From Clostridia bacterium (GTDB lineage: Bacteria; Bacillota; Clostridia; Oscillospirales; CAG-272): 64,000 nt of DNA. A program made the translations under genes and the position numbers. This document shows positions 46,968-47,996 of the stretch, piece after piece; position 1 is the stretch's first letter, and each line of letters begins with the position of its first letter. Location of the stretch: contig JAFYBN010000089.1 in NCBI GenBank assembly GCA_017540175.1, forward strand, positions 33,203-97,202. The letters run 5' to 3'. The notes under the pieces are model-generated. The model ran no database searches. It saw only the letters and a list, made by a program, of their open reading frames with translations, and had not been told where the DNA came from.

Positions 46968-47027
46968 ACGAACCGCAATTTCTTCTATGACGAATTCTGA
47001 TCTGACTTTTGAGTGCCATGAATGGGG

Positions 47028-47075
47028 GCTGTTGTGTTTACTCCGATCACGGAGAAACGCCGCAGCTCGTTTTTT
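47028..47075 (+). terminator. spoVG terminator
   Basis: Imperfect long hairpin from GCTG to CAGC enclosing CTCCG/CGGAG, followed by six T. Confidence 0.65.
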
Positions 47076-47117
47076 ATGCCGCTGAACAGGGATGAGCGTT
47101 CATCCGGTCCAACTCGC

Positions 47118-47148
47118 AAAAAAAGCCGCAGCCTCGGAAGGATACGGC
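47118..47148 (-). terminator. tRNA-Gly terminator
   Basis: Hairpin with stems GCCG/CGGC and CCT/AGG just downstream of the tRNA on the minus strand, followed by seven T. Confidence 0.7.
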
Positions 47149-47156
47149 GATGAATC

Positions 47157-47227
47157 AGCGGATGGGGGGAATCGAACCCCTAACTCAAGCTTGGGAAGCT
47201 GGCGTTTTACCACTAAACTACATCCGC
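47157..47227 (-). tRNA. tRNA-Gly (anticodon CCC)
   Basis: 71-base cloverleaf: acceptor GCGGATG/CATCCGC, anticodon loop TTCCCAA (CCC), T-loop TTCGATT, discriminator U, no encoded CCA. Two mismatches are seen by eye, C28-U42 in the anticodon stem and A49-C65 in the T stem. Confidence 0.88.
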
Positions 47228-47237
47228 GCGTGAACGT

Positions 47238-47266
47238 ATTATAGCACATCGGCGAGCCGCTGTCAA
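47238..47266 (-). promoter_or_regulatory. tRNA-Gly promoter
   Basis: Minus-strand TTGACA (47261-47266), 17-base spacer, TATAAT (47238-47243): full consensus. Confidence 0.88.
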
Positions 47267-47326
47267 GAGAGAAACGGAAAGTTTTTGCCGTCGTAAACGA
47301 AAATAAAATCGTGAGAAAGGCTCTCC

Positions 47327-47446
47327 GAATTCTCGCCTGCGGGCTCGGTCAGGGCAGGGTCTGACAGTCCACAGGACAGTCCTTGTAGATCTGCACGTAC
47401 AAGTCCGGTTCGTCAGAAAATAAAAAAAGTGCGGGTGAAAGGACTT
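47327..47446 (-). repeat. Structured tRNA-linked repeat, distal copy (120 bases)
   Basis: First of two tandem units, both starting on the plus strand with GAATTCTCGCCTGCGGGC and ending with a copy of the tRNA-Leu 3' tail plus its T run. The central hairpin GACAGTCC-ACA-GGACAGTC (47363-47370, 47374-47381) differs in sequence but not position from that of the other copy. Small ORFs across it are not genes. Confidence 0.85.
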
Positions 47447-47569
47447 GAATTCTCGCCTGCGGGCTCGGTCAGGGTCGGCTCTGACAACCCACAGGGTTGT
47501 CATTCACTACCGACCCGTTCAAGTCCCGGTTAGTTCGGAGAAATAAAAAAAGTGCGGGTGAAAGGACTT
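47447..47569 (-). repeat. Structured tRNA-linked repeat, proximal copy (123 bases, runs into tRNA-Leu)
   Basis: Second unit, sharing 28 bases at its start (47447-47474 with 47327-47354) and 32 bases at its end (47541-47572 with 47418-47449). Nested stems: GGACTTGAA/TTCAAGTCC (47441-47449, 47518-47526), GGGTCGG/CCGACCC (47472-47478, 47510-47516) and GACAACCC/GGGTTGTC (47483-47490, 47494-47501). Confidence 0.85.
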
Positions 47570-47636
47570 GAACCTTCATGAAGTTGCCCCCACAAGAACC
47601 TGAATCTTGCGCGTCTGCCAATTCCGCCACACCCGC
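47553..47636 (-). tRNA. tRNA-Leu (anticodon CAG)
   Basis: 84-base class II tRNA with long variable arm: acceptor GCGGGTG/CACCCGC, anticodon stem CAAGA/TCTTG with loop TTCAGGT (CAG), T-loop TTCAAGT. Discriminator A; CCA not encoded. A run of seven T follows. Confidence 0.94.
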
Positions 47637-47661
47637 GTGTGTTGTTCTCTCGAACGACATG

Positions 47662-47690
47662 ATTATACCGCACGCGGATGGTTTTGTCAA
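47662..47690 (-). promoter_or_regulatory. tRNA-Leu promoter
   Basis: Minus-strand TTGACA (47685-47690), 17-base spacer, TATAAT (47662-47667): full consensus. Confidence 0.88.
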
Positions 47691-47716
47691 GAGGTTTTTG
47701 AAAAAAATCTCAAAAT

Positions 47717-47746
47717 GAGTTAGGGGTTCGATTCCCCCGCCCGGAA
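47717..47746 (+). other. Orphan tRNA 3'-end fragment
   Basis: Plus-strand bases 47717-47738 are identical to the T-arm part of the neighbouring tRNA-Gly and are followed by GCCCGGAA, like an acceptor strand. No 5' half is present. It may be a tRNA remnant or an old integration-site scar. The rest of 47637-47996 holds the two promoters and no gene. Confidence 0.6.
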
Positions 47747-47844
47747 CCGGTTTGGCTCCCCGCGCATTTACCTTGCGGGAAAGGCCTAAAAACTGCGCGG
47801 CTTTGCCGAACATTACAGCTTTGTTACATCTTGGCCTCTCCCCT

Positions 47845-47873
47845 TGCCCGCGTTGATCTTTTGTGATATAATA
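47845..47873 (+). promoter_or_regulatory. Promoter of ABC exporter 2 operon
   Basis: TTGCCC (47845-47850), 17-base spacer, extended -10 TGATATAAT ending at 47873. Confidence 0.65.
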
Positions 47874-47996
47874 TCATGGGTTTGTCCGGTTTTCTGTGTC
47901 AGCCGGATTCTCCGCCCGCAGAGCGACCTTCGGACCGCTTCCCACTCCGCGGTTTCAAGGACTTTATCAAGACTCATCTCCAGCAATGAAAGAAAA

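Follow-up and report, generated by a model that had tools for sequence, protein, structure and literature searches.

A putative non-coding hairpin element in tRNA and tmRNA genes of Clostridia, with an arm that matches its target

Two head-to-tail units follow a tRNA-Leu gene

On the minus strand, the window (i.e., the whole stretch of 64,000 nt that was analysed) carries tRNA-Leu(CAG) (47636-47552), two head-to-tail units, and tRNA-Gly(CCC). The initial annotation had placed the units between two tRNA genes, which stands in the more specific form that they lie 3' of tRNA-Leu on the minus strand. The features of the locus are as follows.

47552..47636, minus strand: tRNA-Leu(CAG), read as the regenerated target gene (ARAGORN and Rfam RF00005, 52.9 bits)
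47553..47570, minus strand: Y, the duplicated block, i.e., the tRNA-Leu 3' end from T-loop C56 to A73 (sequence, repeat D2)
47541..47551, minus strand: T-run 3' of tRNA-Leu, S of unit 1, without a hairpin
47517..47527, minus strand: arm X of unit 1, GGGACTTGAAC, the reverse complement of the tRNA-Leu T-loop/T-stem (sequence)
47472..47516, minus strand: unit 1 stem P2 (47510-47516 with 47472-47478) around stem P3 (47494-47501 with 47483-47490) (RNAalifold on alignment A4; fold)
47455..47464, minus strand: unit 1 hairpin P4, GCC-CGCA-GGC, within the conserved block TGACCGAGCCCGCAGGCGAGA
47430..47447, minus strand: Y', a duplicate of the tRNA-Leu 3' end at the close of unit 1, forming the 3' arm of P1 (repeat D2, 32/32 nt)
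47418..47428, minus strand: second copy of the T-run (repeat D2)
47397..47406, minus strand: arm X of unit 2, degenerate, GGACTTGTAC (sequence; 7-nt match to its own tRNA)
47363..47381, minus strand: unit 2 stem P3, with one mismatch (sequence)
47327..47354, minus strand: conserved block of unit 2 with P4 (47335-47344), without a subsequent tRNA 3' copy
47157-47227: tRNA-Gly(CCC), after both units on the minus strand

The direct repeats reported earlier were recovered in full: positions 47327-47354 equal 47447-47474 over 28 nt, within an 80-nt repeat of 78% identity, and positions 47418-47449 equal 47541-47572 at 32 of 32 nt, the latter block being the 3' end of tRNA-Leu(CAG), a minus-strand gene, plus its T-run. 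Both of the reported hairpins are present, namely GACAACCC/GGGTTGTC (47483-47501) and, with one mismatch, GACAGTCC/GGACAGTC (47363-47381). Read in the tRNA sense, unit 1 runs from the T-run through a short spacer, arm X and P2 (GGGTCGG/CCGACCC) around P3 to TGACCGA, P4, GAGAATT, Y', and the copy of the T-run, and the longest match to its own tRNA is 10 nt for arm X and 21 nt for Y'. The outer pairing described for the proximal unit can be specified further, in that the outer stem, P1, joins an antisense T-arm to a tRNA 3' copy. When a segment containing the proximal unit was folded, it outperformed 199 of 200 shuffled versions (z -2.86), with X paired to the 3' end of the tRNA proper (a part of the segment) rather than to the unit's own copy; the fold of the distal unit is unremarkable (z -0.72). 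Unit 2 is decayed, as it has a degenerate arm X and lacks a tRNA 3' copy behind it.

Among Rfam covariance models, only those for tRNAs reached the gathering cut-off in the window, and a search over 47000-47900 placed nothing on the units at E values up to 10. A hammerhead-like ribozyme was considered and set aside: compared with the hammerhead catalytic core, CUGANGA..GAAA, the motif CUGACCGA..GAGA is the wrong core, it is absent from variants (by eye), and it has no Rfam match. Separately, positions 47716-47738 on the plus strand, upstream of tRNA-Leu and opposite in strand to tRNA-Gly itself, hold a 23-nt perfect inverted copy of a 3' portion of tRNA-Gly(CCC), from the anticodon stem to the T-arm, which is perhaps a displaced tDNA fragment.

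The units are widespread and biased towards tRNA 3' ends

A DNA search found 15 matches in the window's genome, and a first covariance model, built from 15 own-genome units, found 17, of which 15 come 3' of a tRNA, sharing its strand and contig. Some stand alone and others form arrays, behind Leu(CAG) (two), Leu(GAG) (two), Leu(TAG), Val(CAC), Glu(CTC) (four), Glu(TTC) (three), and Tyr (two sites), while the remaining two matches lie near a contig end with no tRNA within 1.7 kb and have arms that resemble tRNA-Tyr arms. Because the same design recurs across these 17 matches and in relatives, the units of the window are not a chance arrangement. Matches at an E value of 0.001 were found in 25 of 59 genomes (the window's own included). 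A second covariance model, made from 47 units, was used to scan the order at an E value of 0.0001 and gave matches in 91 of 295 sampled genomes, 75 of 253 high-quality genomes, and 50 of 149 genera, with at most 14 candidates scored per genome, so that the copy numbers are minimum values. Sampling across the class gave matches in 16 of 293 genomes, 12 of them outside the order. The covariance search that had been proposed on first inspection of the locus thus recovered further copies in relatives, with their stems kept. One unit, at the tRNA-Leu(GAG) locus, is common to three species, and a syntenic tRNA-Glu(CTC) carries units in five species.

The exact 20-base core occurs in at least 117 stretches in named genomes. 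Among the 80 core matches listed, 79 were from Clostridia, mostly metagenome-assembled genomes and many from the guts of ruminants or other herbivores, and one was from Saccharibacillus, a copy without hairpins that looks like chance. Two IMG/VR contigs also contain the exact core, and phage and plasmid collections gave no match to one window unit. Nearly all of the genomes are drafts, and some units stand at the ends of contigs. The open-access literature searched contained no account of units of this kind, including the accessible portions of PMC8040213, PMC2864571, PMC4383910, PMC9897764, and PMC3146451. To judge from these copies, the units make up a large family, i.e., a non-coding hairpin element of about 100 bases in the tRNA and tmRNA genes of many gut bacteria.

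The position of the copies relative to genes was counted for 126 distinct exact-core copies (L101-L217 without L160), with 200 nt of DNA on the left for 110 and on the right for 113 of them. At a distance of up to 200 nt, 36 copies have a tRNA or tmRNA gene upstream on their own strand and 2 have one downstream on that strand, and a gene in the opposite orientation is found on the left in 4 and on the right in none; the bias of the units for tRNA 3' ends is strong. The question raised initially of whether copies always follow tRNA genes is answered in the negative, as 139 of 266 distinct units have a tRNA or tmRNA gene within 700 nt upstream on the same strand in the available sequence, the remainder including truncated units at the ends of contigs and a related class that is intergenic. 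The genes followed by the 99 units at a distance of 80 nt or less are Ser (25), Leu (21), Glu (11), tmRNA (9), Arg (8), and Tyr (7), with Gln (6), Pro (6), Trp (2), Ala (2), and Met (2) as rarer hosts, all as raw counts.

Several variants and neighbouring repeats were also seen. A tRNA-less class (L106, L141, L113, L045, L089, and others) has a small hairpin instead of X, with a GAA or similar loop (e.g., GCGC-GAA-GCGC), and often lies within another palindromic repeat (GGCTTCCCCTTGAGGG..AAGCTGTCAG..). Copies in L108, L152, L207, and L346 are located in an apparent antisense partial tRNA-Leu, at the D-arm, and in L108 and L207 the partial tRNA-Leu fragment is repeated on the left too. Copies in L107, L194, L144, and L104 end in a tRNA-Cys acceptor end (GCGCCTCCA) and not in a T-loop, and in L135, L137, L161, L174, L213, and L293 the P3 stem or P4 harbours a second, nested palindrome (GGGGTTCCCCG..GGGG type). 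An IMG/VR contig (L218, 11846-12157) carries two tandem units behind a 3' fragment that resembles tmRNA; across 12 kb, this viral contig has no tRNA or tmRNA gene, and a phage-like element may use the same tmRNA gene as the units. Another multi-copy repeat, at about 1725-1825 of L035, has many matches in G012, G019, and G011, and short repeats of the L291 region (query 471-555 and 873-934) occur in dozens of places in G131, G168, G188, and G216.

Arm X and the 3' copy match the adjacent gene

A tRNA-linked unit has X (the reverse complement of the T-loop/T-stem of its own tRNA), P2/P3, P4, and a copy of the 3' end of that tRNA. Of the 266 distinct units, 139 have a gene upstream at no more than 700 nt. 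In these, the median length of the best match between X and the unit's own gene was 11 nt, versus a mean of 6.4 nt to other genes, and the corresponding values for the 3' copy were 19 and 5.8 nt. Units outside the loci used for the models (44 of 63 with a gene) gave 11 versus 6.5 nt for X and 21 versus 6.0 nt for the 3' copy, these 63 units being not fully independent in that the model that found them included P1 pairing. Nine pairs of units have cores no more than two edits apart and lie at different tRNAs, with different, matching arms; in G131, for example, the Ser(GCT) and Ser(GGA) cores are identical and the tmRNA core is two changes off (L291, L330, L329).

The fit of the arms seems not to be maintained. 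X is perfect across nine positions in only 52 of 99 units, a point against the insertion model described below, and is alone altered at 54 positions. The 3' copy and the tRNA disagree at 33 positions, and there X fits the tRNA in 30 cases, the altered copy in 1, and neither in 2. Because X fits the tRNA and not the changed copy, the covariation of P1 is explained by the target, and P1 looks to have been set at insertion and to decay thereafter. P1 as a helix kept by selection is unsupported by these differences and was rejected.

Empty and filled sites

The tmRNA gene of G168, followed directly by its terminator, provides an empty site. In the filled site of G131, the tmRNA gene is followed by a different terminator hairpin, a spacer, X, the core, a second copy of CGATTCCCCTCGCCTCCACCA, and a terminator, the last of which has the flanks seen in G168 and a different hairpin stem. 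The inserted sequence measures 132 nt, to which is added the 21-bp repeat CGATTCCCCTCGCCTCCACCA, a duplicate of the gene 3' end from T-loop C56 to A76. The tmRNA gene of G216 also has no unit, but its downstream sequence is different. A second comparison comes from a Gly-Arg-His-Gln-Lys operon, in which four of six species (G212, G246, G267, G239) have an Arg-His spacer of 26 nt, G184 has one of 142 nt (26+95+21), and G315 has one of 99 nt, where a decayed unit is left; the Gln-Lys spacer contains a unit in five of the six species and none in G239. The interval from tRNA-Leu(CAG) to tRNA-Gly in G002 and G024 holds an ordinary terminator and no unit, and the tRNA-Ser(GCT) locus of G131 gave no usable empty site, as the loci of three relatives have no tRNA. 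The duplicate from C56 to A76 corresponds to the 3' strand of the acceptor-T minihelix, which is 21 bp with CCA encoded.

As read from the paired sites, these comparisons demonstrate duplication of the block from C56 to the gene 3' end, so that the upstream gene stays whole, and, in the tmRNA case, apparent arrival of a terminator hairpin with the insert and displacement of the original terminator region downstream. The terminator had also been considered as part of the target duplication, which was dropped as the G131/G168 pair places it inside the insert. In some loci, among them L192 and L040, an identical terminator flanks the unit on either side (37 and 33 nt, respectively), which counts against a 21-bp duplication alone, unless a second unit was lost.

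Taken over the compared loci, the comparisons show an apparent entry at the T-loop, a doubled 3' block, a regenerated gene, a target-specific X, and spread between tRNAs. We consider it probable that the units are a non-autonomous mobile DNA element that inserts in the T-loop of tRNA and tmRNA genes (before C56) and regenerates the gene; in the two resolved cases its size is about 95-132 bp plus the 21-bp target duplication. The initial suggestion of a tRNA-targeting mobile repeat is thus well supported, both by the empty and filled sites with their 21-bp duplication and by the strong tRNA 3'-end bias. Units without a tRNA in reach, of which 35 of 107 have a flanking direct repeat of at least 12 nt, of mixed kinds, are not explained and count against the insertion model.

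The 3' copy could instead be an attP fragment, if the units were miniature islands, i.e., defective integrative elements reduced to their attachment region and moved by the tyrosine or serine integrase of resident islands or phages. Such an element would need the right 3' end for every tRNA, and we regard this origin as unlikely, as the near-identical cores at Ser(GCT), Ser(GGA), and tmRNA carry different, correct 3' ends, for which reason we read the duplicate as derived from the target and not from attP. Furthermore, att sites require no target-complementary arm, and the resolved inserts of 95 and 132 nt are without an integrase, with a helper in trans still conceivable. The signature itself, a regenerated gene and a displaced fragment, is shared with tDNA islands according to the accessible portion of the Islander report (PMC4383910), and the two units directly after a tmRNA-like 3' fragment in the viral contig would also suit a miniature island.

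The stems covary and contain few G-U pairs

RNAalifold, run on a MAFFT alignment of 47 units made without structure, found P1, P2, P3, and P4, with both sides changed in 19 of 25 pairs. In a model-fitted alignment of 113 rows, 92.9% of the cells pair, and there were 636 double-changed cells versus at most 117 in slid versions. Within P2-P4, G-U and A-C pairs accounted for 0.41% and 0.41% in alignment set A3, 0.95% and 0.72% in A4, 2.05% and 0.51% in A5, and 2.67% and 0.82% in A6, these sets being partly overlapping. For comparison, 170 tRNAs gave 8.28% and 1.32% in their acceptor and T-stems, so that G-U pairs are 3-20 times fewer in the unit stems. This scarcity favours DNA folding (or palindrome correction) more than selection on RNA. 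The initial annotation had seen selection on an RNA or DNA fold, and this holds for P2-P4, with DNA favoured more than RNA by the few G-U pairs, and fails for the outer stem P1, which fits the target tRNA and then decays uncompensated.

A role as a host-useful RNA, transcribed from the tRNA promoter and acting on tRNA 3' maturation, decay, or termination, is in our view quite unlikely, given the rarity of G-U pairs, the uncompensated decay of P1, and the patchy presence of units across many different tRNAs. In most of the loci inspected, moreover, a terminator-like hairpin separates the gene from the unit (by eye, uncounted), which leaves little support for the earlier idea of a 3'-processing element; the window itself has no such hairpin. 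Little also speaks for a tRNA-derived RNA, another of the initial proposals, as the core is not tRNA-derived. Observations that fit a host RNA are the strong covariation of the fold and two loci: the Gly-Arg-His-Gln-Lys operon in L348 (449-1203) has a unit after Arg and another after Gln, with no terminator-like site before either, and in L295 only about 2 nt separate the tRNA CCA from the start of the unit. In five of the six species compared at one operon site, the orthologous units have stems that are still paired despite changed sequence, with some G-U pairs, and these persistent stems, together with the units at the syntenic tRNA-Glu(CTC), could mean a host role, even as RNA. Palindrome correction at replication (template switching), which would perfect the stems with no structural selection while routine duplication and gene conversion beside tRNA genes spread the family, fits the almost exclusive Watson-Crick pairing and the equal G-U and A-C shares in A3 and is very improbable, in that it leaves the T-loop insertion, the 21-bp duplicate, and the target-specific X unaccounted for, G-U exceeds A-C in A5 and A6, and the unpaired GTGAAT, TGACCGAG, and the CGCA loop recur across many units.

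A possible mechanism and candidate enzymes

For a mobile element that inserts in the T-loop, the architecture of the unit suggests how insertion might proceed. The insert ends in the hairpins P2/P3 and P4, preceded by arm X. In a folded, probably single-stranded, DNA intermediate, X would pair with the T-arm of the target, and X, P2/P3, and P4 would meet in a three-way junction, placing the element's 3' end (..GAGA) at the T-loop cut. The duplicate would result from two staggered cuts, one in the T-loop and one at the gene 3' end, and X would be made complementary via copying or heteroduplex correction against the target, with X and the 3' copy drifting later. An enzyme would be needed and would presumably be supplied in trans. 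More tentatively, the units may represent a new mobile class, guided to its insertion site by the shape of a folded tRNA and by base pairing, in which a small single-stranded hairpin recognises the exposed T-loop and 3' end of a tRNA-like fold, duplicates precisely the C56-A76 strand of the acceptor-T minihelix, and gains a fresh complementary arm at each target.

No mobilising enzyme was found with the two families profiled, Y1_Tnp (PF01797) and RVT_1 (PF00078). Y1_Tnp is present in 21 of 59 genomes and in 4 of the 15 genomes with two or more unit matches (G007, G028, G037, G055), being absent from the other 11, including the window's own, in drafts for which absence is not proof. RVT_1 was detected in 23 of 59 genomes and in 3 of these 15 (one in the window's genome; G002; G037), and is absent from 12. 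Both families are absent from nine of the 15 (G003, G005, G012, G019, G035, G038, G041, G050, G054), of which G038, G041, G050, and G054 are 98-99% complete. Past movement, or the use of another mobile element's enzyme, is possible.

If the insertion reading is right, tRNA and tmRNA genes host very small insertions that an Islander-like size filter would discard, since Islander, in the accessible part of its description, drops candidates of <2 kb (PMC4383910). The units would then be a natural experiment in which a non-coding element enters an essential gene, keeps the gene whole, and fits an arm to each site, and the enzyme would cut and join DNA specifically at tRNA genes. Such insertions may also explain why gut Clostridia have arrays of partial tRNA 3' ends.

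Comparison with known systems

The closest likeness is to tDNA islands (the Islander set and the Dehalococcoides ssrA islands), which, in the accessible portions of their descriptions, split a gene and regenerate it, leave a displaced 3' fragment, and can stand in tandem, as the units do. A regenerated gene and a displaced 3' fragment bound the insert in both resolved cases (the G131/G168 tmRNA and the G184 Arg-His spacer). Islands carry an integrase, whereas these inserts hold no integrase and no gene, and the units are only 95-132 bp, have hairpins that are conserved and an arm complementary to the target, and carry a duplicate whose sequence varies with the target. REP and REPIN-BIME elements are short palindromic interspersed non-coding repeats moved by RAYT (Y1) transposases, and the units resemble them in being short, palindromic, interspersed, and non-coding; dependence on Y1_Tnp is unlike the units, as most genomes with two or more unit matches are without it (11/15), and we know of no REPs with a tRNA target and duplication. 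MITEs are small non-autonomous elements with target duplication, all of which applies to the units, but the latter differ by their 21-bp duplication and internal target-complementary arm, and no terminal inverted repeats of the MITE type were seen by eye at the ends of the two resolved inserts. TRE5-A-type retrotransposons insert near tRNA genes, not inside them. They are like the units in targeting tRNA genes and unlike them in being retrotransposons, and RVT_1 is absent from 12 of the 15 genomes with two or more unit matches; the accessible parts of two reports describe tRNA genes as the landing sites of such Dictyostelium elements (PMC5391098, PMC9012585). Each known kind considered fails a test or is without a target-fitted arm, though in effect the element behaves as a miniature tDNA island would.
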